Shown piece after piece: positions 2,618-32,824 of a DNA stretch of 39,108 nucleotides. Position 1 is the first letter of the stretch. Each line of letters opens with the position of its first letter. The notes below the pieces were generated by a model that was not told the DNA's origin, did not search any database, and was given only the letters and a program-made list of their open reading frames with translations. This stretch comes from Deltaproteobacteria bacterium (GTDB lineage: Bacteria; Desulfobacterota; Desulfobacteria; Desulfobacterales; C00003060): positions 1 through 39,108 of the forward strand of contig QMMN01000021.1 of assembly GCA_003647275.1 (NCBI GenBank), written 5' to 3'. The translations under genes were made by a program, and so were the position numbers.

Positions 2618-4639
2618 TTGGATTGGACAAATAGGGAACTTTATCCGTTTTCGGCCATTGTGGGTCAAGAAAAAATGACCAAGGCACTCATCTTAAATGC
2701 GATCTGTCCCTCTATCGGCGGGTTGTTGATCAGGGGGGAAAAGGGAACAGCGAAGTCAACGTCTGTTCGGGCACTAGCCGCCGTTTTACCTGAGATTGAT
2801 GTTGTTTCAGGATGTCCGTTTAACTGTGACCCTCATAAATATGAACATTTGTGCCCCGAATGTAAGGCAAGGGTGAAACAGAGTATTGATCTTCCTATAC
2901 TAAAACGAAAGATAAAGGTTATCGATCTTCCCCTTGGGGCCACCGAGGACAGGGTATTGGGGAGCCTGGATCTGGAGTATGCTGTAAAAGAGGGGAAAAG
3001 ACGTTTTACCCCCGGTTTGCTTGCCTCAGCCCACAGGGGGATTCTGTATATAGATGAAGTCAACCTGTTGAATGACCATATTGTGGATGTCATTCTTGAT
3101 GCCGCTGCCATGGGGATGAATATCGTTGAGCGGGAAGGGGTTTCCTATATGCATCGGGCCGAATTTATCTTGATCGGCACTATGAACCCTGAAGAGGGGG
3201 AATTACGGCCCCAACTGCTTGATCGATTCGGGATGTGTATACAGATTGAAGGAATAAAAGACCTGGATGAAAGGGTTCGGCTGATCAAACTCAGAGAACA
3301 TTTTGATACAAACAGGACTGATTTTATCATAGCGTATCAAGCCCATCAGAATAATCTTTCACAAAAGATTGTCCGTTCAAAGGAGCGACTTCCACGCGTC
3401 AAGATTTCAGATGAAATGGTTCAACTTTGTTCAAAACTCGCATTAGATGTATTTGTGGCCGGGCACCGTGCAGATATTATTATGCGAAAGACGGCCCTCA
3501 GCATTGCATGTTATGAGGGAAGAGAAGAGGTAACCGAGGAGGACGTCGATGAAGCGGTCGATCTTGTACTCCTTCACCGTGCAAGAATGCCTCCTTCCCC
3601 ACATTATCAAAACGAAAAAAATGCAGAACATCCACCATCTCCCCCGGAGGAGGGAGAAAAGCCTGAAAAAGGAGAGAAAAAACTAGAGGCCCAAAACCAG
3701 CAAAAGAGTAAAGCAAGGGAGGGAGAAGAAGAAAAGGGAGGAGAAAAGGATAAAGAGGAATCGGAAAAGAGTATCTCCGGGATTCCGATCCTTGAGACTG
3801 TTTTCCCCGTTGGAGAGACCTTTAAGGTAAGAAGAATTCAAATGGAAAGAGACCGGGTATTGCGGAAAGGATCTGGAAGAAGAAGCCGAACAAAGACATC
3901 CTCAAAGGCAGGCAGATATATCATGAGTACCATCGAGAGAAAGACCAATGACCTGGCCCTGGATGCTACCCTGAGAGCAGCTGCCCCTTATCAACAACGG
4001 AGGAGAAGACAAGCTGTAGCCATTGCTATTGAGGAAAGCGATATCCGGGAGAAGATCAGAGAAAAAAAGATTGGAAATTTTATTGTTTTTGTGGTGGATG
4101 CCAGCGGTTCTATGGGAGCGGGAAAACGCATGATTGAAACAAAGGGGGCTATCCTTTCTCTTCTCCTGGATGCTTATCAGAAAAGGGATAAAGTCGCCAT
4201 GGTGGCCTTTAAGGAAAACCGTGCCGAGGTCCTTCTCCCCCCAACCAACAGCATAGAGCTTACCTATAAACTTTTAGAAGAGCTTCCCACTGGAGGGAAG
4301 ACTCCGCTCTGCCACGGGATATCTCTCGGCTACCAGATCATTCAAAGCTATTTCCGGAAAGATCCTAATATATATCCATTGCTGGTACTTATCTCTGATG
4401 GAAAGGCTAATGTGAGTCAATATGGTGGGGAACCTCTCTCCGAGGCTATGGAAGTGGCGGAGGAGATAAAGGATGACCCGCGGGTCAATAAAGTCGTCAT
4501 TGATGTCGAAAAACCGGGATTGATCTCCTTCGGGCTGGCTCATCAATTATCTGTCCGAATGGGGGCCAAATACTTTAGGATCGAGGATCTCAAGGCAGAT
4601 ACATTAGTAGAGGTTCTCCGAAAGGATCTATTAGTATAA
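2618..4639 (+). CDS. Mg/Co-chelatase-type I-D fusion (AAA+ plus VWA) subunit
   Basis: A 673-residue protein. Residues 1-320 repeat the whole AAA+ I domain and are closely similar to the upstream gene: Walker [10 protein letters not shown] 40-48, Walker B ILYIDEVN 142-149, GTMNPEEG 187-194, LLDRFG 200-205 and the same C66/C70/C79/C82 cluster. A charged, Pro/Glu/Lys-rich linker spans about 325-385. The C-terminal VWA (integrin-I-like) domain has an intact MIDAS: DASGSMG at 494-500, GKTPL around T562 and ISDGKA at 592. In chelatases this subunit couples the ATPase ring to the H/CobN subunit. The start is TTG 2618, with AAAGAGGT at 2603-2610, directly after the inserted element. Unlike many BchD proteins, the ATPase motifs are not degenerate. 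Confidence 0.88.
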   Translation: MDWTNRELYPFSAIVGQEKMTKALILNAICPSIGGLLIRGEKGTAKSTSVRALAAVLPEIDVVSGCPFNCDPHKYEHLCPECKARVKQSIDLPILKRKIKVIDLPLGATEDRVLGSLDLEYAVKEGKRRFTPGLLASAHRGILYIDEVNLLNDHIVDVILDAAAMGMNIVEREGVSYMHRAEFILIGTMNPEEGELRPQLLDRFGMCIQIEGIKDLDERVRLIKLREHFDTNRTDFIIAYQAHQNNLSQKIVRSKERLPRVKISDEMVQLCSKLALDVFVAGHRADIIMRKTALSIACYEGREEVTEEDVDEAVDLVLLHRARMPPSPHYQNEKNAEHPPSPPEEGEKPEKGEKKLEAQNQQKSKAREGEEEKGGEKDKEESEKSISGIPILETVFPVGETFKVRRIQMERDRVLRKGSGRRSRTKTSSKAGRYIMSTIERKTNDLALDATLRAAAPYQQRRRRQAVAIAIEESDIREKIREKKIGNFIVFVVDASGSMGAGKRMIETKGAILSLLLDAYQKRDKVAMVAFKENRAEVLLPPTNSIELTYKLLEELPTGGKTPLCHGISLGYQIIQSYFRKDPNIYPLLVLISDGKANVSQYGGEPLSEAMEVAEEIKDDPRVNKVVIDVEKPGLISFGLAHQLSVRMGAKYFRIEDLKADTLVEVLRKDLLV

Positions 4640-4916: not shown

Positions 4917-5023
4917 GTGTTTTTTTTGTTGACAATCTTTCTTTAGCTGTTTAATGATGAACATCACAGGAATACATTGTAGCAAGAAGCTATACTCTTA
5001 CTAGCAAATCTAAATTTAAAAGT

Positions 5024-5075
5024 AAAGCCAGGAAGGTGAGGATGGGTTTGAAGACCTGTCAGTCTTTCTGGCTTT
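5024..5075 (+). promoter_or_regulatory. Leader hairpin upstream of the FmdE gene
   Basis: AAAGCCAGGAAG (5024-5035) pairs with CTTTCTGGCTTT (5064-5075) with one or two G-T wobbles, around a GA-rich interior that can form a smaller GGGTTT/GACC-type stem. It is followed by TTTTGTTTTT, so as RNA it looks like an intrinsic terminator 30 bases before the start codon. It could act as an attenuator or riboswitch expression platform. It does not match a riboswitch consensus that I recognise, including the Moco/Tuco element. Confidence 0.4.
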
Positions 5076-5105
5076 TTGTTTTTGGAAAGGAATAAGGTTT
5101 TGAGC

Positions 5106-6071
5106 ATGGATATCGTAGATGTATTGAGATCTATTAGGCATGATTTACTTGAATATATCCAAGAAAAGGTATTGGTGGATTTTGATAATGTCAGCAAAGT
5201 ACCTGTTAGTTTTACCCATAGAGGAAACAGGTGCATCATTCGGGAGATTCTCGGTTTTTTCAGGACACAATCAAAGCGGCACATAAATGGTTATTTGGTA
5301 CGAGATGATGGTGGGGAGACATATTTTCTGTACTTTCATTTCCTGAATAGTAATCCTGAATGTCCATTTAATGCCGGCTGTTGGGTTTTGAGTTTTAGGG
5401 TTTTAAATGATGGAGAATTGATGGTTTTATACAGGGAGGATAGGAGAATGTTACTCAATACGACGCTCAAGAGAGTCGTTGATTTCCATGGCCACCTGTG
5501 CCCTGACCTGGTGATCGGCTGTAAGGCCTGTGAATACGCGCAAAAAATACTCTATGAAAACGGGGAACCAGAAGGGGGGATTTCGGTCATTGCGGAAAAT
5601 TGTACCTCTGCTCTGGATGCCGTTCAAATTCTTGTAGGGACAACAGTTGGGAATCAACGCCTCAGGGTGTTTGATTTCGGCAAACATAACTATATATTTT
5701 CACTTAAAAATGGACAAAATGGCATCAGACTGTCGTTGAAGAAGCTCTATTATGGTGATGAGAATGAACACCAGATGCTTGAGGAAAAGATTATGAAAGA
5801 TCAGTCGTCTCTGGATGAGGTGGTGCATTTTCAGGGGCTTTTAGACGGTCGGATAAAAAGATTGCTTGCTTCTCCTGCTGAAGATCTCTTTTTTGTAGAG
5901 CCGGTCAGGCCGATGCGGCCAACGAATGAGATGCCGACAACCTATCATTGCTGTTCGGAGTGCGGGCAACAGGTCTTAAAAAGCCGGGCCATCGAATTTC
6001 AGGGCAAGATTTATTGTATTCCATGTTTTCAGGGGCTTGACGGCTGTGGCCCGGAACAAGGCCTGCATTGA
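5106..6071 (+). CDS. FmdE-family protein with N-terminal extension and C-terminal zinc ribbon
   Basis: A 321-residue cytoplasmic protein of three parts. Residues 1-115 form an unrecognised alpha/beta domain with two Cys (ECPFNAGC). Residues about 118-230 are an FmdE-type domain with DFHGHLCPDLVIG at 126-138 and ENCTSALDAVQ near 165, then FGKHNYIF. The end carries a zinc ribbon with C283/C286 and C304/C307. FmdE proteins are named after formylmethanofuran dehydrogenase subunit E. They are common in anaerobes near molybdenum or tungsten enzymes and bind metals through the HGHxCP-type motif. Their exact role is not settled. Start 5106 is preferred over the upstream ATG 5076 because TAAGG (5093-5097) lies 8 bases before it and 5076 is inside the leader hairpin region. 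No formylmethanofuran dehydrogenase genes are nearby. Confidence 0.82.
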   Translation: MDIVDVLRSIRHDLLEYIQEKVLVDFDNVSKVPVSFTHRGNRCIIREILGFFRTQSKRHINGYLVRDDGGETYFLYFHFLNSNPECPFNAGCWVLSFRVLNDGELMVLYREDRRMLLNTTLKRVVDFHGHLCPDLVIGCKACEYAQKILYENGEPEGGISVIAENCTSALDAVQILVGTTVGNQRLRVFDFGKHNYIFSLKNGQNGIRLSLKKLYYGDENEHQMLEEKIMKDQSSLDEVVHFQGLLDGRIKRLLASPAEDLFFVEPVRPMRPTNEMPTTYHCCSECGQQVLKSRAIEFQGKIYCIPCFQGLDGCGPEQGLH

Positions 6072-6206
6072 AAGCAAAAGCGGAGGTTACCCCTTGTTGA
6101 CCGGCCTGCTCCCCGGACGCGAAGCGCTGCCGAAAGGCAGAACACCCACCCAGGAGGGCGGGGAGGCTTCACATACAGGATTTTAGGGATACAAAGATAT
6201 TGAAAT

Positions 6207-6275
6207 TTGGGCTCAAGCCCAACAATACCACCCAAAAATTAGATTCCTTTTATTATCAGGCCACGAAGGCCTGAT
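6207..6275. other. Two palindromic hairpins downstream of the FmdE gene
   Basis: TTGGGCT (6207-6213) pairs with AGCCCAA (6216-6222), and ATCAGGCC (6255-6262) pairs with GGCCTGAT (6268-6275) around ACGAA. The second hairpin contains GGCCACGAAGGC, the same 12 bases that open the 73-nt repeat at 6320, so it may be a partial relative of it. The stretch from 6072 to 6468 has no convincing gene. Confidence 0.4.
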
Positions 6276-6319
6276 AGAAATACCTGTTAGTCCAAAAAGT
6301 AATTTCCATAAATAAAATA

Positions 6320-6392
6320 GGGCCACGAAGGCTCAAAGGAGTTGGCATGCCCCCCTTGACCGCGTGGCCTTTTCGTTTGGAGCCACAAGGGT
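6320..6392 (+). repeat. 73-nt structured repeat, copy 1
   Basis: These 73 bases recur at 20694-20766 with only two substitutions. The similarity weakly continues upstream (CAAAAAGTAATTTC). CCACGAAGGC near the 5' end can pair with GCCTTTTCGTTTGG, leaving two TT bulges. Inside, TCAAAGG pairs with CCCTTGA around a GGCATGCC palindrome. GGCTC and GAGCC offer an alternative pairing. Of the two differences, C to T in GGCC keeps a G-U pair in the outer stem. Both copies lie upstream of the same small-gene start (MNEQAKRQ). Candidate structured RNA or small mobile repeat. Confidence 0.6.
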
Positions 6393-6468: not shown

Positions 6469-6657
6469 ATGCGCAAACAACAGGACAGAGACAATTGTCC
6501 TTATTTCGATAAACCCATGAAAGATTGTTATTGTGCTGTTTTCAATTCCTTCACCATTCCGCTAATTGTCCGCTACTGTTTCAACGATTACGAGGAATGT
6601 CCTCATTACAAACAAGTGGTTTTGATGAGTTCAAAGCAAAAAGTTCCCAAAGAATAG
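6469..6657 (+). CDS. Small Cys-rich protein
   Basis: A 62-residue hypothetical protein with Cys at 10, 20, 22, 37 and 44 in the pattern CPYF...DCYC...YCFNDYEECPHY, which suggests a small metal-binding fold. There is no signal peptide or membrane segment. AAGGGA lies before the ATG. I do not recognise a named family. It sits between the 73-nt repeat and a zinc-ribbon gene, in the same direction, and is probably part of the same set of small metal-binding proteins. The spacing of 125 bases to the next gene and a hairpin between them argue against tight coupling. Confidence 0.55.
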   Translation: MRKQQDRDNCPYFDKPMKDCYCAVFNSFTIPLIVRYCFNDYEECPHYKQVVLMSSKQKVPKE

Positions 6658-6762: not shown

Positions 6763-6807
6763 AAGAAAATCAGGGGGGGAAAATGAACGAACAGGCAAAA
6801 AGACAAT
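6763..6807 (+). repeat. Leader and start of MNEQAKRQ gene, copy 1 of a 45-bp repeat
   Basis: The segment from AAGAAAATCAGGGGG through the first eight codons (MNEQAKRQ) recurs almost unchanged at 20939-20982. Together with the 73-nt repeat, this shows that parts of this locus were copied to a second place. The DNA between the two repeat blocks differs in sequence and length (about 370 against 172 bases). Confidence 0.7.
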
Positions 6808-6983
6808 GTCCGAACTGCAAGACGGAAATTCTAGTGGTGTTCAAGGGTGGAGCGTTGGGATGTGGTGAAATCAAAAAATGCCCCAGTTGCAAGTCACCGA
6901 TCTTGTTTTGTCCTGATGGATATATCTGTCATTCCGTGGCTCCGTTAATGAAGCGTCATGACTTACGCCGAAAAATCTTATAG
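6783..6983 (+). CDS. Small double-CxxC zinc-ribbon protein
   Basis: A 66-residue protein with CPNC at 9-12 and CPSC at 33-36, plus C27, C43 and C49. The spacing fits a zinc ribbon or rubredoxin-like knuckle. A polypurine run (GGGGGGGAAA) precedes the ATG and works as a strong ribosome site. The gene overlaps the start of the next one by 26 bases. The same eight N-terminal codons occur at 20958, where the rest of the gene is missing. The cellular role is unknown; the sequence suggests metal binding in the cytoplasm. Confidence 0.6.
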   Translation: MNEQAKRQCPNCKTEILVVFKGGALGCGEIKKCPSCKSPILFCPDGYICHSVAPLMKRHDLRRKIL

Positions 6984-7462: not shown

Positions 7463-8818
7463 ATGGAGACGAGTTACAACATCCTGGTGATCGATGATGA
7501 CGCGTACATGCGGGACGCCTGTCACCAGACCCTGACTAAACATGGTCATAGCGTTAGCCTGGCGAACAGTGGTCGTGAAGGCCTTTTCCTCCTTGAAAAA
7601 TGGTCATTTGACCTTATCCTCCTTGACTTGAAGATGCCCGGCGAAGACGGGCTGTTTGTTCTGGCCAAGATCAAGGATCTGGACCCTGAGACCATTGTCG
7701 TCATGATCACGGGATACGGCTCTATCGAAACCGCTGTTCAGGCCATCAAGCATGGGGCCTTTGACTTTATTGCCAAGCCCTTCACCCCAGAGGAACTGCT
7801 CAAACTGGTTGACCGGGTGCTGAGAAACCGCCAGTTAACCATCGAAAACTTGTATCTTAAGCAGAGCCTTGAGCAAGAAACCCCGCGCACCGAAATCATC
7901 AGTAAAAGCCCTGCCATGGAAAAGGTCAAGGAGATGATCGCCATGGTAGCCCCCACAGACAGCACGGTATTGCTTCAGGGTGAAACTGGCACAGGCAAGG
8001 GGGTTGTAGCCCGAAAGATCCACGAGATGAGCAAGCGGCGTGGGCATTCCTTTATATCCGTTGATTGCGGCTCCTTGGTGAGCACCATATTTGAAAGTGA
8101 ACTTTTTGGTTATGTGAAAGGGGCCTTTACGGGCGCAGATAAAACCCAATACGGAAAATTTGAGATGGCCCACGGGGGGACCTTATTCTTTGATGAGATA
8201 TCCAACATAGGTTTGGAAATTCAGGCCAAGCTCCTCAAGGCAGTGGAGGAAAAGTGCATTTCTAAGGTAGGAGATCACAAGGTCGTCAAAGTCGATGTCC
8301 GCGTTATATCAGCCACAAACCGGAATCTTCAGAAGGCCATCGCTGAGGGACTCTTTCGTGAAGACCTGTTCTTTCGACTTAACGTGGTCTCCATGCACCT
8401 GCCGCCTCTGCGGGAGCGTAAAGAGGATATCCCGCTGCTGGTGAATCACTTCTTAAACAGGTTTAGTATGAGACAGGGAAAAGCGGTTAAGGGCCTTTCC
8501 CCAAATGCTATGAAGACACTCACAGAATACCATTGGCCCGGCAACGTCCGGGAACTGGAGAATACTGTGGAGCGGCTGGTGGTCTTTGCACGAGACAAGA
8601 CCATTACTACACAGGACCTTGTCTATTCCAATACAGTGCTATCGAGTGTGCTTATGAGGGAACCGCTTCGCTTGGAGGAAATGGAGCGCCTGCACATTAT
8701 GAAGATCCTCCATCGCACGGAGGGGAATAAGACCCATGCTGCCCGATTGCTCGGTATTGACCGCAAGACACTTAGAGTCAAGATGAAAAAATATCAAATT
8801 CCAACGGCCTCTCCATAG
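7463..8818 (+). CDS. NtrC-family sigma-54 activator / response regulator
   Basis: A 451-residue three-domain regulator. The receiver domain (about 6-118) has the acidic pair D11-D12, phospho-acceptor D55 ([10 protein letters not shown]) and K104. The AAA+ sigma-54 interaction domain (about 145-380) has Walker A GETGTGKG 172-179, the intact sigma-54 contact loop GAFTGA 219-224 and Walker [10 protein letters not shown] around 237-245. The C-terminal Fis-type helix-turn-helix contains [27 protein letters not shown] just before ATG 7463 decides the start. No cognate histidine kinase is adjacent, so the gene is an orphan here. A perfect -24/-12 promoter lies 2.1 kb downstream before acs, making acs a plausible but unproven target. 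Confidence 0.93.
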
Positions 8819-8963
8819 GGGGATACCAGGGCACTTCCTTACACTTTCAGTTGATCATGTGTACTCAAGCTGTTGCCCAAACGCCGCAATCCTTAAAGCC
8901 TCAAATCTCTTTAATGTAATCTTAACGATGTCGAGTTTGCAAGAAAGTGAAGGAGCTTCAAAA

Positions 8964-9515
8964 ATGAATCCATCCATTGCACCATTAGCGAACAGAAAAA
9001 ATTGTGTATTAGTCATAATTGATGTCCAACAAAAATTGGTTCCTGTCATTGAAGAGGCTAGAAAAATTATCGAAAACATTGTCAAGCTTATCAAGTTTTC
9101 TAAAATCCTTGGTTTTCCTGTTGTCCTCACTGAGCAGCAAAAGCTCGGAGAAACCGTGACAGAAATACGAGGAGAAATACCGGACTTTCAGCCTATCTCA
9201 AAAATAACATTCAGTTGTTTCGGGTCTGAGGAATTCAGGAAACATATACGCCAGCTCAATAGAAATACCCTGATTATCACCGGTGTTGAGGCGCACATCT
9301 GTGTGGCACAAACAGCTTTACCTGCAATATCTGACTACACAGTCCATGTTGTAAGCGACGCGATAGGTTCTCGTTCCATTCATGATTGGGAGATTGCCTT
9401 AGACAGAATGCGGCATAACGGTATTACAATTACATCAACCGAGATGCTTATCTACGAATTGCTTGTAAGGGCCGGGACCCCTGAATTTAAAGAAGCGCTG
9501 CGACTGATAAAATGA
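8964..9515 (+). CDS. Isochorismatase-family cysteine hydrolase
   Basis: A 183-residue cytoplasmic hydrolase with the isochorismatase/YcaC fold. The catalytic triad is readable: D20 (VLVIIDVQQ), K80 (ISKITFSCF) and C113 (TGVEAHICVAQTAL, including the conserved cis-peptide VEA region). The family cleaves amides or vinyl ethers; the substrate cannot be assigned. The longer frame begins at 8859, but ATG 8964 has AAGGAG 8 bases upstream and gives the normal family length, so it is preferred. It is followed by HldD after 109 bases in the same direction, with no evident functional link. Confidence 0.88.
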   Translation: MNPSIAPLANRKNCVLVIIDVQQKLVPVIEEARKIIENIVKLIKFSKILGFPVVLTEQQKLGETVTEIRGEIPDFQPISKITFSCFGSEEFRKHIRQLNRNTLIITGVEAHICVAQTALPAISDYTVHVVSDAIGSRSIHDWEIALDRMRHNGITITSTEMLIYELLVRAGTPEFKEALRLIK

Positions 9516-9624
9516 ACAGCTCCGTTGTCTGCAACCATATTTCTACCGGTTCGTCCGCATGGAATCGCTCACGACCTTTGGTGGAAGGGGGATTGGGGCG
9601 GTTTTTGGCAGATGAAGGACTGAT

Positions 9625-10605
9625 ATGATTATTGTAACAGGTGGTGCAGGTTTTATCGGCAGCAATATTGTCAAAGCGCTTAATGAGCGCGGTCGCTCGG
9701 ATATTTTGCTTATTGACAACCTGTCGCACGGGGCTAAATTCAGGAATATCGCCGACTGCAAAATCCAGGATTATCTAGATAAGGAAGATTTCCTGGAGAG
9801 GGTCAAGGCCGGGAGTGACTTCAGCCCGCCTATCGAAGCGGTCTTCCACCAGGGGGCCTGTTCGGCCACCACGGAGTGGGACGGCCGTTACATGATGCGC
9901 AACAATTACGGATACTCCAAGGAACTTCTCCATTATTGTTTGGAACGGCGTATCCCCTATATGTATGCCTCCAGCGCCTCGGTCTATGGAGCGGGCAAGG
10001 TGTTTAAAGAAGCCCGCGAACACGAGAAACCCCTGAACGTCTACGGTTATTCCAAGTTTCTGTTCGACCAATACGTACGCCGGCTGCTGCCTGATGCTGA
10101 GAGCCAGATCGCCGGGTTTCGCTATTTCAATGTTTACGGCCCCAACGAACAACACAAGGGTTCCATGGCCAGTGTGGCCTTCCACTTCAACAACCAGGTT
10201 CTTGCCGAGGGCAAAGTGAAGTTGTTCGAAGGGAGCGATGGATATGCGGATGGCGAGCAGCGCCGCGATTTTATCTATGTGGGTGATGTGGTGGACGTGA
10301 ACCTGTGGTTCATGGACCACCCTGATAAATCCGGTATCTTCAATGTGGGTACCGGCCGTAGCCAGAGTTTTAACGACGTGGCCCGGGCCGTTATTGACTA
10401 CCACGGTCGTGGTGAGATCGAATACATTCCATTCCCCGAACACCTGAAGGGACGATACCAAAGCTTCACCGAGGCGGATATTAGCGCGTTGCGCGAGACA
10501 GGTTATACGGCGCCCTTCAGGACTGTGGAGGAAGGCGTGCGGCTCTATATGAAGTGGTTACAAGCGCCAAGCAGAGTGATAACAAGTAGAGATTTATCCG
10601 AGTAA
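9625..10605 (+). CDS. hldD: ADP-L-glycero-D-manno-heptose-6-epimerase
   Basis: Extended SDR epimerase of 326 residues that converts ADP-D-glycero- to ADP-L-glycero-beta-D-manno-heptose for the LPS inner core. It has the NADP-binding [10 protein letters not shown] at 5-14, the family-specific [14 protein letters not shown] near 74-87, the SSASVYG serine around 117, the active-site YxxxK (Y140, K144) and [11 protein letters not shown]. The C-terminal [13 protein letters not shown] is also typical of HldD. GAAGGA precedes ATG 9625. A GT9 heptosyltransferase lies 27 kb away in the same window, which supports a heptose-containing LPS. By eye its codon use is richer in G and C than that of neighbouring genes. 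Confidence 0.95.
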
Positions 10606-13137: not shown

Positions 13138-15024
13138 GTGACAGAACTTCCTCTAGATAAGGTTCTGGATTTTTTGGAAAGGGTACGCCCCTTTTCAGAA
13201 CTCCCTGAACAGGTTTTGAGGGATGTGGTTAAGACCCTTTTGATTGATTATTTTCCTGAGGGAGAAGTTATATTGTCCCCTGGTCCCACGGATAGCCCAT
13301 TTTTGTATCTAGTGAATTCGGGGGTAGCACACTGTTTCACAAGGGACGGGACAACCACCGTCACCCTCAGGTATATCTCAGAAAAAGACCACTTCGGAAG
13401 CGAGACCATATTGACAGGAAGATGCGCATATACAGTTGAGGTAGTTGAGGACACCATCTGTTATCTGTTGAAGCCTGAGGTGTTCAAATATCTTGAAGAC
13501 CGATTTGAAGGCTTCAAGCGATACTTTAAGACAATAAAGGGCCCTTTGGCTATGCAGATAGCAGAACATATGGCCTTCAAAGAGGACGTATCTCTCCCAC
13601 GGCTGCCGGGAGAGAGAAATATAACCTCCTCGCAGTTTAAGACATCAATTGGTTTTCTCATAGACAGAGAGCCTGTTTGCTGTGAACGAAAAACCACGGC
13701 ATCCGAGATTGCGCGGATCATGGAGTTTAGAGGTGTTGGTTCTGTGATCGTTTTGGATGGGAAAAGACCTATTGGGATTGTAACCAAAAACGATCTTATA
13801 AGAAAGATACTGGCAAGGGGAAGAAGGGGTGATGTTCCTGCCGCTGAGATCATGAGCAAAAATCTACTTAGTCTCGATTGTAATGACTCGTGCTTTGAAG
13901 CGTCCCTGCGTATGGTGGAAAACCATTGTCATCACATGGTAGTCACGAAAGGTGACAAACTCTACGGTGTGATTTCCCAGCACGACCTTATACTCTTGCA
14001 GGGCGCAAATCCTGTAGCTGTTGTAGGAAGCATTTACAAGCAAAAAGACCTTACCGGAATAAAAAAATGCGTGCGGGATATGTCCATTGTGCAGGAAGTG
14101 CTCCTGAGAGAAGGTGGCCGGATGTCCCAAATTTGCCTGCTCATGAGCACCTTCAGGGACACCCTTACAAAAAGGCTTATGGTTCTAGCAATTGAAAAAA
14201 TGAGAAAACAGAAAAGGGAACTTCCCGTACTGGATTTTTGCTGGGTTACCTTTGGAACTCCAGGCCGCAAAGAAACGCTGCTCGGGGAGAATTATCTCGA
14301 GGGATTTATATATAAAGACCCGAAAGATGGATTGAAAGATGAGACAGAGGCCTACGTCAAAGCACTCGCCGCGATGGTTAAGAATGGTCTGGTGGAATGC
14401 GGTTTATTGCACCGGGAACACGGACAGGTATTGTGTCTTCCTGAATCAAAGTGGAAAGAATGGTTTATGGAATTGGTGGGGGGTAAAATCCCCCTCGACT
14501 CCAATGGCCTCCGGATGTTTGATCTCAGGGGTATTTGCGAGGAACATGAAACTGTCGACGAATTCAGGGGATACGTATTTGAGCTTGCAAGGCGCGAGCC
14601 CGAGTTTTTAGGCCGGTTGAGGATGAAGAATAATGCAACCGCCATCCCCATATGTTTTTACCGTGACAGGGTAGTCCTTTCAGATGTGCACAGGGAAACA
14701 CTCGGCCTTAAGAATGATGTGCTAACCCTTCTTGTTGATACTGTGCGCTTTATGGCCATTGAAAAGGGAATCATGGCATTCAGCACCATCGACCGCATAA
14801 AGGCCCTTTGTGATGTAGGAGTAATCACCAGAGAAAAAGCCAGCGATCTTGAAACAGTATATGAATGGTTTGTGAGACTATGCTTGCAAAAGGCATTGGA
14901 GGAGAAAAAGACTTTGGACTGGATGCTTGAGCCTGGTGAACTTTCCCCTGATGAAAGGAGACTCTTTGCCGAAAGCTTTAGATTCATAAGGGACTTTATA
15001 CTAACAGCATCAGTACAAAATTAA
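13138..15024 (+). CDS. cNMP-binding/CBS/DUF294 protein with degenerate nucleotidyltransferase site
   Basis: A 628-residue protein: cyclic-nucleotide-binding-like domain (about 15-130), a CBS pair (about 178-292), a GlnD-type nucleotidyltransferase domain DUF294 (about 315-450) and its C-terminal partner domain (about 480-628). In the nucleotidyltransferase motif, GTPGRKETLLGENYLEG (373-389) aligns without gaps to GSEGRKEQTFSTDQDNA of the paralogue at 18619-20550. The two metal-binding aspartates of DQD become N385 and L387, so transferase activity is unlikely. The cNMP pocket lacks the canonical Arg (RCAYTV instead of PRSATV). It starts with GTG 13138. Relatives sit beside acetate synthetase/symporter genes in many proteobacteria and are presumed regulators. 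I infer a pseudoenzyme sensing adenylates through the CBS pair. Confidence 0.85.
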   Translation: MTELPLDKVLDFLERVRPFSELPEQVLRDVVKTLLIDYFPEGEVILSPGPTDSPFLYLVNSGVAHCFTRDGTTTVTLRYISEKDHFGSETILTGRCAYTVEVVEDTICYLLKPEVFKYLEDRFEGFKRYFKTIKGPLAMQIAEHMAFKEDVSLPRLPGERNITSSQFKTSIGFLIDREPVCCERKTTASEIARIMEFRGVGSVIVLDGKRPIGIVTKNDLIRKILARGRRGDVPAAEIMSKNLLSLDCNDSCFEASLRMVENHCHHMVVTKGDKLYGVISQHDLILLQGANPVAVVGSIYKQKDLTGIKKCVRDMSIVQEVLLREGGRMSQICLLMSTFRDTLTKRLMVLAIEKMRKQKRELPVLDFCWVTFGTPGRKETLLGENYLEGFIYKDPKDGLKDETEAYVKALAAMVKNGLVECGLLHREHGQVLCLPESKWKEWFMELVGGKIPLDSNGLRMFDLRGICEEHETVDEFRGYVFELARREPEFLGRLRMKNNATAIPICFYRDRVVLSDVHRETLGLKNDVLTLLVDTVRFMAIEKGIMAFSTIDRIKALCDVGVITREKASDLETVYEWFVRLCLQKALEEKKTLDWMLEPGELSPDERRLFAESFRFIRDFILTASVQN

Positions 15025-18618: not shown

Positions 18619-20550
18619 TCATCCCAGGTTCAGGTGAAAATAATCCCCTATAAAAACTTGTATCTCGCCAATGAGTAAAAATGCTTTCTTGAGGGTATGT
18701 TTTTCAATATCTGTAAGTTCAGAAGGGTTTATGTAGTTGTCGGGGTCCTTACCATTTTCTGCCATATTGAGTTGATGCACGAGGCGGAGTTGCATCTGAA
18801 ATTCGTACAACTCCCTTATCCTTGCGGCAAGGTCTTTGGATATGAAATTTTGCTCCTTAAGGGACTCTATTCTCTCAAGGGTATTTGTAGCTGTAATCCC
18901 ATTGTCAAGTGACATGAGACGGGCGAAATCAACAAACGGCACAAGTCCCTTTGTCTTCAGATCAATATGCCCCTTATGTTTGCCGTCCTTATCCACCATG
19001 AAATTCTTAAACAGGGAAGAAAGGGGCGGCCTTGCAGCCATGCAGTCCCTTGCCAGATGGTGGATAAAGATCTTTTCATGGAGACCTCTTTTGACCAAAT
19101 GGTTTCGCAGCCTGTGAGCCAACTCCATCTTGCCAAAAGCAGGTCTGAAGTCAAAAAATATGGTTGAGTGGAGAACCTGTTGGGGGTCAGGAGAAAATAT
19201 CCAGTGGTCAAAGAGCTTCTGCCACTCTGAGAAAGGCTGGTTCCACTTGGGATTTGAAGCCATTATGTCTCCCTTGCATAGAGAATAACCGCATGCAGCA
19301 AGGTGGCCTACGGCCTTTTGGGCGAATTTCACGAAATATTCCCGGGCCTCCTTTTCCTGGTCGGGGCCATCAGGGTCTTCGTATATAATGGCATTGTCCT
19401 GATCGGTCGAAAAAGTCTGCTCCTTTCTCCCCTCACTTCCCAAGACCATCCAGCAAAATGGCACGGGTGGGGATCCCATTTCCTCTATCAGGAGGGTCAG
19501 GATGCGGTCCAATATCTGGTCATTGAGCACCGTAATCATGCGCGTAATATTGTTGGCCTTTGCACCGTCCTGAACAAGGGCCCTTGCAACATCCCGATTT
19601 TTTTTGGAAAGGGGATAAAGCCCTTCGATTTCTGTCTGGGCAGCTATTTCCCTGAACAGCACTATAGGAGAATTTCCCTGCAACAACAGTATGTCATGAG
19701 CTGTGACAACACCTATGATATCTCCCTGTCGTTCAACAGCAAGGTGATGGATACGGTTTTTCAGCATGGAAAGGAGGGCATCAAAGCAGACCGCCTGCGC
19801 TGGTTCAGTCTTTACAGGGAATGACATGATGGACTTGGCGGGGTCGTCATAGCTGATTCCTTTTGCAACGACCTTTCTCCTGAGATCCTTATCCGTAATG
19901 ATTCCCTTTAACTCCCCGTTTCTGTCTTTTACGAGGAGTGAACCTATGTGGTATTTGGCCATTTTTTGGGATGCTGTCTGAACTGTCTCATCAGGCAGGC
20001 AGGTGTGGAGAGTTCCTTTTATGATACCGCCTATATTCTGGCTGAAAAGGCAAAGGGTGGTTTCGGCTTTGGGGCTAACCCTTTTTTTGCGTAGCTCGTA
20101 GTAGGCTGCATGAATGTATTTTTCGCAAAAACTCTTTAAATAAAAGGCTGAAAACCCTGGATTCGCATTGAGGAAATCTTGGAAATTTTTTTTGGGGACA
20201 AGAACACAATACGTATCCTCAACGGCCTCCACATTTAAATAAGCCTTTGTTTCCATGATGATGCCGAGTGCCCCGAAATAATCACCAGGCCCTCTGTACG
20301 CCTTAAGTATTTCCATATTCTCTTCATCTTTAAGATATAACTTAACGCCGCCACTCTTGATCAAGTAGAGGGCGTCAATGTCGGTCCTGTCCTGGCTGAA
20401 TATAAGGGTCCCTTTGGGATAGAATCCCTCGCTTAAACTTTCCGACAGCCTTCTGAGGTCTTGGTCCTTGAGACCGCTAAAAGGGGGGACCGTTTTTAAA
20501 AAGGTGACCGCTGCTTTCAACTCGTTTTCTTTGATGTGATTTTTCCTCAT
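18619..20550 (-). CDS. cNMP-binding/CBS/DUF294 protein with intact nucleotidyltransferase site
   Basis: A 643-residue paralogue of the plus-strand gene at 13138, with the same domain order: cNMP-binding-like (about 25-125), CBS pair (about 180-293), DUF294 nucleotidyltransferase (about 320-450) and C-terminal domain (about 480-640). The motif GSEGRKEQTFSTDQDN (371-386) keeps the Gly-Ser and both aspartates (D383, D385), as in GlnD-type enzymes, so it may be active. The cNMP pocket lacks the phosphate-binding Arg (FGALGIIMETKAYL), so cAMP binding is doubtful. ATG 20550 is preferred to an upstream TTG at 20586, although neither has a good ribosome site. Facing the acetate cluster, it may modify a partner protein, but the target is unknown. 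Confidence 0.85.
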   Translation of the reverse strand: MRKNHIKENELKAAVTFLKTVPPFSGLKDQDLRRLSESLSEGFYPKGTLIFSQDRTDIDALYLIKSGGVKLYLKDEENMEILKAYRGPGDYFGALGIIMETKAYLNVEAVEDTYCVLVPKKNFQDFLNANPGFSAFYLKSFCEKYIHAAYYELRKKRVSPKAETTLCLFSQNIGGIIKGTLHTCLPDETVQTASQKMAKYHIGSLLVKDRNGELKGIITDKDLRRKVVAKGISYDDPAKSIMSFPVKTEPAQAVCFDALLSMLKNRIHHLAVERQGDIIGVVTAHDILLLQGNSPIVLFREIAAQTEIEGLYPLSKKNRDVARALVQDGAKANNITRMITVLNDQILDRILTLLIEEMGSPPVPFCWMVLGSEGRKEQTFSTDQDNAIIYEDPDGPDQEKEAREYFVKFAQKAVGHLAACGYSLCKGDIMASNPKWNQPFSEWQKLFDHWIFSPDPQQVLHSTIFFDFRPAFGKMELAHRLRNHLVKRGLHEKIFIHHLARDCMAARPPLSSLFKNFMVDKDGKHKGHIDLKTKGLVPFVDFARLMSLDNGITATNTLERIESLKEQNFISKDLAARIRELYEFQMQLRLVHQLNMAENGKDPDNYINPSELTDIEKHTLKKAFLLIGEIQVFIGDYFHLNLG

Positions 20551-20693
20551 TTTAAAATCATAGCAATAAAATGATTTTTTTTGCAACTCGAATCTTGGCG
20601 TCTTCTTGGAGCCGTAGCCCGAGTTTTCAACGCCCTTAGGTTATTCCGCCTTAAGTTCAAAAAAGTAAATTTCTAGATTAATAACTTAAAACA
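20551..20693. other. Upstream region of the minus-strand DUF294 gene
   Basis: No gene is seen. The AT-rich stretch before the 73-nt repeat (about 20657-20690) is weakly similar to the stretch before copy 1 (CAAAAAAGTAAATTTC against CAAAAAGTAATTTC), so the duplicated block may once have been longer. Confidence 0.3.
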
Positions 20694-20766
20694 GGGCCAC
20701 GAAGGCTCAAAGGAGTTGGCATGCCCCCCTTGACCGCATGGCTTTTTCGTTTGGAGCCACAAGGGT
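20694..20766 (+). repeat. 73-nt structured repeat, copy 2
   Basis: Identical to 6320-6392 except CGCATGGCTTTTT for CGCGTGGCCTTTT. It lies between the divergent DUF294 gene and the broken small gene at 20958, and in the same orientation relative to that gene as copy 1. It has the same folding potential: an outer stem with two TT bulges and an inner TCAAAGG/CCCTTGA stem around GGCATGCC. Confidence 0.6.
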
Positions 20767-20938
20767 GACCAACGCAGCTGGTAGGTTCAGGAGCCTTTGC
20801 GGCTTTTGTTTTTCAAAAAGAAAACGGGTTATAATGACAATCTGTCCATAGCAAAGGAGATGAGCCTGAAGCCTTGGGCCAGCCTGCCAGGGACATAAGC
20901 CTTGACGCGAATCCCTGTATGGGGGCGGCAGAGGTTTG

Positions 20939-21020
20939 AAGAAAATCAGGGGGAAAAATGAACGAACAGGCAAAAAGACAATATTGGTACTGGAGATTCA
21001 TCCAGGGTCATCGCAAGTGA
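20939..21020 (+). pseudogene. Broken second copy of the MNEQAKRQ zinc-ribbon gene
   Basis: Bases 20939-20982 repeat the leader and first eight codons of the gene at 6783. After MNEQAKRQ the frame diverges completely (YWYWRFIQGHRK) and stops at 21018-21020. None of the CxxC motifs is present. It is best read as a truncated duplicate joined to unrelated sequence. The following bases to about 21154 remain open in another frame but show no recognisable protein. Confidence 0.6.
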
Positions 21021-32693: not shown

Positions 32694-32824
32694 ACAAGAC
32701 CTCCAGGTTATGGTGAGTGAAGCCTCTGCCTTGCGGCAGCGCTTCGCGTGCAGGGCGCCGAAAAAAAAGTCTCCAGGAGGATAACTATTCTGGGGAGACC
32801 TTTAGGATAAACATAGCCTTGTAC

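Follow-up and report, generated by a model that had tools for sequence, protein, structure and literature searches.

The near-identical repeat that a first-pass annotation had marked at two places in the 39,108-nt stretch of DNA analysed here (contig QMMN01000021.1 of a Deltaproteobacteria bacterium; hereafter the window) is, judging from comparative analysis, part of a predicted RNA on-off switch that precedes genes for nickel uptake in many sulfate reducers and related bacteria, the majority of which lack NikR, the customary nickel-responsive repressor. The repeat itself is the 3' half, that is, the terminator hairpin, of a leader RNA in which a promoter is followed by a hairpin with an NGAA or NNGAA loop (P1), a linker of about 46 nt, and the terminator. 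The 5' arm of this terminator, GCC-ANGAA-GGC, is nearly invariant and can fold alone as a second, P1-like hairpin (P2). We are confident that a leader RNA tied to nickel/cobalt uptake genes is real and conserved, and we lean, with distinctly less assurance, towards the full mechanism of a nickel-regulon attenuator in which P1 and P2 would compete with the terminator.

Two such leaders lie on the forward strand of the window. Leader A (4929-5079), which precedes an FmdE-like gene, is canonical and complete: a predicted sigma70 promoter, read directly from the sequence and of the class that is enriched before leaders (TTGACA-N17-TAATGA; 4929-4958), precedes a P1 hairpin, GTAGC[AAGAA]GCTAT (4977-4994), and a terminator hairpin, H2, with embedded P2, GCC[AGGAA]GGT, and a U-tract (5023-5079; matched by both covariance models described below, with E=2.6e-9 for R2). 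The segment 4977-5076 folds with a z-score of -3.1. The gene that follows on the same strand (5106-6071) encodes an FmdE-domain/zinc-finger protein (Pfam FmdE, E=1.7e-25) and would be under the control of leader A; its homologues are found 3' of the RNA in other genera (loci L082, L125, L174, and L183).

Leader B (6168-6378), which stands before a 62-aa gene, diverges from this form. Its weak promoter (TTCACA-N17-TACAAA; 6168-6196, direct reading) reads TTGACA-N17-TACAAT in the homologous locus L008, an extra 5' hairpin (TTGGGCT-CA-AGCCCAA; 6207-6222, direct reading) is present also in L003 and L008, and its P1 hairpin, TATCAGGCC[ACGAA]GGCCTGATA (6254-6276), shows compensatory changes in L003 (TATCAAGCC/GGCTTGATA) and L004 (CTTAGCC/GGCTAAG). 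Copy 1 of the repeat forms the divergent terminator hairpin H2a (6320-6378) with embedded P2, GGGCC[ACGAA]GGCTC (6320-6334), and a U-rich tract; its model scores are weak (R2 E=0.0041 at 6318-6375, R1 E=0.0064), and homologues of it are found at L003, L006, L007, and L008. Directly downstream, a second tandem unit is represented by its start only (GGAGCCACAAGGG; 6379-6391), being complete in copies 2 and 3 and lost beyond this point in copy 1. The genes after leader B, both on the forward strand, encode a cysteine-containing 62-aa protein (6469-6657), for which a Pfam search gave no match and whose gene follows the RNA also in three same-genus genomes (G018, G005, and G007), and a 66-aa zinc-ribbon-like protein (6783-6983; Pfam matches below cut-off), of which a near-identical gene lies 3' of the RNA on contig C112 of the same genome.

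The two copies of the repeat (6320-6392 and 20694-20766) are indeed 97% identical over 73 nt, and 96% identical over 80 nt (6313-6392 and 20687-20766). They had been presented as a structured element in their own right; the isolated 73 nt fold no better than shuffles (z -0.15 and -1.15), whereas leader B from 6250 to 6376, with the upstream hairpin included, reaches z -3.5. The limits first given for the element are wrong, and the P1 hairpin at 6254-6276 also belongs to it. Of the two differences between the copies, one gives a G-U pair, as the first-pass annotation had noted, and the other (CGCGTGG to CGCATGG) costs copy 2 a C-G pair of the outer stem. Both copies were said to precede the same small-gene start, and a shared stretch of 44 nt (6774-6817 and 20949-20992) does follow each of them, but the different 62-aa gene precedes the zinc-ribbon gene at copy 1, and at copy 2 the truncated zinc-ribbon gene start (20949-20992, forward strand) is a stub of only about 25 nt. 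The GGCTC/GAGCC pairing put forward as the competing fold is unconserved, with GAAGCC in L003 and no such pair in L006, L007, and L008; the conserved alternative is GCC-ANGAA-GGC (P2) versus GCCACG/CGTGGC (terminator).

A third copy (95% identity) lies on contig C112 at 3561-3633, and this contig shares with the copy 1 region 522 bp that hold the zinc-ribbon gene and the gene after it as well as a 263-bp leader stretch. Copy 2 and C112 share only 297 bp that end about 25 nt into the zinc-ribbon gene, which marks copy 2 as a decayed partial duplicate. It comprises a duplicate of H2a with one broken pair (20694-20746) and a second hairpin, H2b (20754-20812), within 20687-20812 of the forward strand, has an R2 match at 20692 (E=0.0034) with no P1 seen upstream, and looks like a passive, decayed duplicate. 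A more divergent copy on contig C74 is found before a paralogue of the sigma-54 response regulator of the window.

Several other features of these contigs are recorded here in their own right. Positions 1-4000 of C74 (L226) carry a second set of genes like those at 7463-10605 of the window (response regulator, hydrolase, and sugar epimerase) in a different order and about 87% identical where compared, which represents a duplication or a mixed-strain contig. Next to the third copy, L003 carries a gene for a GxxExxY-family-like protein (305-673) that lies near sequence of the cacggatttcacgg type. A 34-nt inverted repeat pair, GCTCCCCGGACGCGAAGCGCTGCCGAAAGGCAGA, at 6108-6141 and 32725-32758 of the window, with 88% identity and 26.6 kb between its members, resembles a dispersed REP-type repeat. 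Finally, two related genes with cyclic-nucleotide-binding-like and CBS-like regions (13138-15024 and 18619-20586) flank acetyl-CoA-synthetase-like and sodium/solute-symporter-like genes.

Searches of related genomes place the repeat in a large family. A same-genus pattern for the conserved ends (CCACGAAGG...TGGCYTTT) finds 48 sites, spread over 17 of the 22 genomes of the genus and mostly located just before start codons, and its reversed control finds 0. Covariance model R1 matches 21 of these 22 genomes, including 5023-5079 of the window, and R2 matches 163 of 241 genomes of the class in 80 of 110 genera (E of 1e-4 or better), though some of these may be plain terminators because R2 was run on genomes of this class only. 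The family terminator signature that both models match is GCCANGAAGG...NTGGC-UUUU. One exact pattern occurs in at least 115 stretches from named genomes in a collection of 85,000 species, with about 3 expected by chance according to our estimate; the matches listed belong mostly to Desulfobacterota and Nitrospirota and in part to Bacillota and Actinomycetota, and some of those in odd phyla (e.g., records of Nitrosomonadales and Segetibacter) may be among the roughly 3 chance ones. Rfam 15 gave no relevant match, the NiCo riboswitch included, for the window at gathering thresholds or for 22 loci at E values up to 2-5; matches to MIR173, MIR2670, and sR1 scored far below gathering and were dismissed as chance. 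We found no description of the element in the open-access literature on nickel, cobalt, and Desulfobacterales leader RNAs, and an earlier description elsewhere is possible.

Across 42 aligned sites, all six inner-helix pairs of the terminator hairpin have changed on both sides (49 cells; 0 of 500 shuffles), and the inner helix is 94% paired compared to 31-60% in slid controls. Since the structure guided this alignment, the result is biased in its favour, yet most sites folded singly also show inner helices. The outer stem has covariants as well (GCCAGG/CCTGGC and GCCAAG/CTTGGC). Common to the sites are a GCCACGAAGGC 5' arm, an inner hairpin that varies in sequence with its pairing kept, and a U-tract; a GAA loop closes 66 of 123 inner hairpins across the family, and in the window leader A has such a loop (TTTGAAGA) and leader B does not. 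Of 147 distinct leaders, 81 have a P1-type hairpin (5 bp or more, loop NGAA or NNGAA) before the terminator, compared to 1.7 in dinucleotide shuffles (maximum 4) and to 4 leaders for the next loop type; P1 had played no part in finding the sites. Outside the genus, 15 of the 17 best loci have a P1 whose stem measures 4 bp or more. The loops seen are AGAA, UGAA, CGAA, AAGAA, AUGAA, and ACGAA, and the distance from the end of the P1 loop to the start of P2 has a median of 46 nt (quartiles 40-66 nt). Sigma70-like promoters stand before 48 of 144 leaders versus 4 in shuffles, with the -35 element about 100 nt before the terminator; since the promoter precedes P1, the transcript is predicted to begin close to this hairpin.

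Much of the terminator's 5' arm was fixed by the search pattern, so only positions outside this pattern count as evidence for P2. Of 144 sites, 140 have a G-C or G-U third pair in P2, covariation is seen for the flanking -1/+1 pair (0 of 2000 shuffles) with little or no such signal at slid positions, and the -2/+2 pair is weak (80 of 2000 shuffles). P2 and the terminator stem are mutually exclusive because they use the same strand. At L102, arm (ACC-ACGAA-GGT) and terminator (ACCACGA/TCGTGGT) have changed together, so both folds survive, and a strand that has to serve two folds would account for a 5' arm that is near-fixed next to a 3' arm that drifts via G-U pairs. A conserved antiterminator strand in the linker that pairs with the terminator's 5' arm was also considered, showed a weak excess (11% vs 5% with at least 7 pairs), and was dropped for P2.

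The mechanism that we propose from these comparisons would have the intrinsic terminator GCCACG...CGTGGC-UUUU as the default fold, capped by the inner hairpin, whose loop is often NGAA. Under nickel shortage, a sensor would bind the two like hairpins, P1 with its NGAA or NNGAA loop and P2 (GCC-ANGAA-GGC). Because P2 takes the 5' strand of the terminator, holding it would block termination and let transcription enter the genes, with P2 acting as the putative antiterminator.

The genes behind the leaders are enriched in functions of nickel/cobalt uptake, comprising CbiM, DUF4198, TonB receptors, NikA-like proteins, LarE, and NicO. Among 105 non-redundant downstream proteins, Pfam families include TonB-receptor plug (17), CbiM, FmdE, and methyltransferase (7 each), DUF4198 (5), ExbB, TonB, and DUF3842 (3 each), and SBP_bac_5 and Peripla_BP_2 (2 each), and by reading we recognized LarE-like (nickel-pincer cofactor) and NicO-type proteins. 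CbiM and NikK-like DUF4198 proteins serve nickel/cobalt uptake. The leading families among 90 proteins upstream of the same sites are TonB_C (4), DUF3842 (3), and CbiK (3), and plug, CbiM, FmdE, and DUF4198 are absent from the 25 families listed for them. A secreted DTNxDGxxD-repeat family (DUF6802-like) is often found 3' of the RNA, or of nikR in genome G016 (L092, L103, L104, L120, L188, L224, and L229), and is probably nickel-linked. DUF3842-type genes recur 3' of the RNA at L146, L150, L157, L160, and L176, and this repeated placement suggests a metal-linked role. The window also has two ChlI/ChlD-type chelatase genes (1091-2185 and 2618-4639) with a four-helix-bundle-like small gene in between (2213-2566); no RNA unit was found before these two chelatase genes, and at L055 a ChlI homologue lies 3' of two tandem RNA units.

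A strong pointer to nickel comes from the distribution of NikR (PF08753), present in 7 of the 241 class genomes compared to 163 with the RNA. Within the genus it occurs in 1 of 22 genomes, G016, the sole one there without the RNA. In G016, nikR is the first gene of a row that continues with a DTNxDG-repeat protein, ExbB-, ExbD-, and TonB-like proteins, and a TonB receptor, and its promoter carries GTGTTAC-N13-GTAACAC, which matches the published delta-proteobacterial NikR signal (PMC545781). In G014, a receptor with 91% identity to this one is encoded behind two tandem RNA units, and the window's own genome encodes, 3' of an RNA unit, a protein with 56% identity to the DTN protein. It looks as if one nickel regulator has been replaced by another within the genus: NikR, a DNA-binding repressor protein, and its operator would serve in G016 the corresponding TonB/ExbBD nickel operon. 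The swap was seen once, and in genus g76 NikR and the RNA occur together in four genomes, so it falls short of proof.

As the sensor we favour an RNA-binding protein over the RNA itself, given the variable linker and the otherwise limited conservation. The alternative is a new riboswitch class in Desulfobacterota and parts of other phyla that would control nickel uptake in place of NikR and would sense nickel or a nickel complex directly, with the NGAA loops of P1 and P2 as the binding site. The strongly conserved loops on hairpins with changing stem sequence and the broad phylum spread speak for such direct sensing, which we regard as possible on a tentative footing; the variable P1-P2 distance and the scant conservation beyond the loops and the P2 arm fit better with independent protein sites. 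The guanidine-II riboswitch, with its ACGR tetraloops, is alike in having two stem-loops with the same conserved small loop, but its genes are guanidine-related and the nickel-leader family is without Rfam match. This mini-ykkC element, a riboswitch made of two identical stem-loops (PMC7266159), nevertheless provides a precedent for direct sensing. The NiCo (czcD) riboswitch, which switches on exporters at high Ni/Co (PMC7266159), is likewise a leader RNA linked to nickel/cobalt genes, but the RNA described here precedes uptake genes, has a different fold, and is without match to it in Rfam. The same attenuator might also answer to cobalt, a corrinoid or tetrapyrrole, or a metallophore. CbiM is used for both cobalt and nickel, TonB/CbiM genes could also indicate cobalt or a corrinoid, and FecB-like binding proteins, methyltransferases, and a ChlI-like chelatase gene are found downstream alongside the TonB receptors; with NikR and a NikR box at the corresponding operon of G016 and with LarE, NikA-like, and NicO genes behind the RNA, we nonetheless judge a signal other than nickel unlikely.

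The architecture of the leader recalls the targets of ANTAR-domain antiterminator proteins (EutV/NasR/AmiR), in which two like small hairpins lie in the 5' leader of the controlled genes and the second is embedded in the intrinsic terminator (PMC8934654, PMC3369931), and an ANTAR protein is present in 16 of 22 same-genus genomes. Yet ANTAR targets carry a hexaloop on each hairpin, with A as its first and G as its fourth base (PMC8934654, PMC3369931), whereas the loops here are NGAA/ANGAA and the genes are of nickel type, and the linker is 5-12 nt in Enterococcus faecalis eut leaders but long and variable with a median of 46 nt in this family. Moreover, no ANTAR protein was found in the window's own genome (G000, 96% complete), and those examined in the genus are GAF-ANTAR proteins beside a glutamate-synthase-like gene or REC-ANTAR proteins. 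Because loops, linker, and ANTAR protein distribution all disagree, we did not file the RNA as an ANTAR target and consider that assignment very improbable. We give equally little credence to the view that the element is just a short passive repeat or a plain, non-regulatory terminator. Copy 2, as a decayed duplicate without P1, and the poor folding of the isolated 73 nt speak for such a reading, but the sense orientation just before start codons and behind promoters, the covariation, the conserved P1, and the coherent gene set over many genera already contradict it for the family. The first-pass annotation had wavered between a small mobile repeat and a new cis-RNA with alternative folds. Orientation and downstream genes that are consistent across many genera leave the former unsupported as the main reading, and the lack of Rfam matches, the covariation, the promoter-leader-gene layout, and the consistent downstream genes support the latter.

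For the preferred reading, a nickel-regulon attenuator, the question raised is whether the metal is sensed by RNA or by protein. If confirmed, the leader RNA would supply the missing nickel control, and its regulon would include several poorly understood genes, namely those for DUF4198, FmdE-domain, and DUF3842 proteins and for the 62-aa protein.
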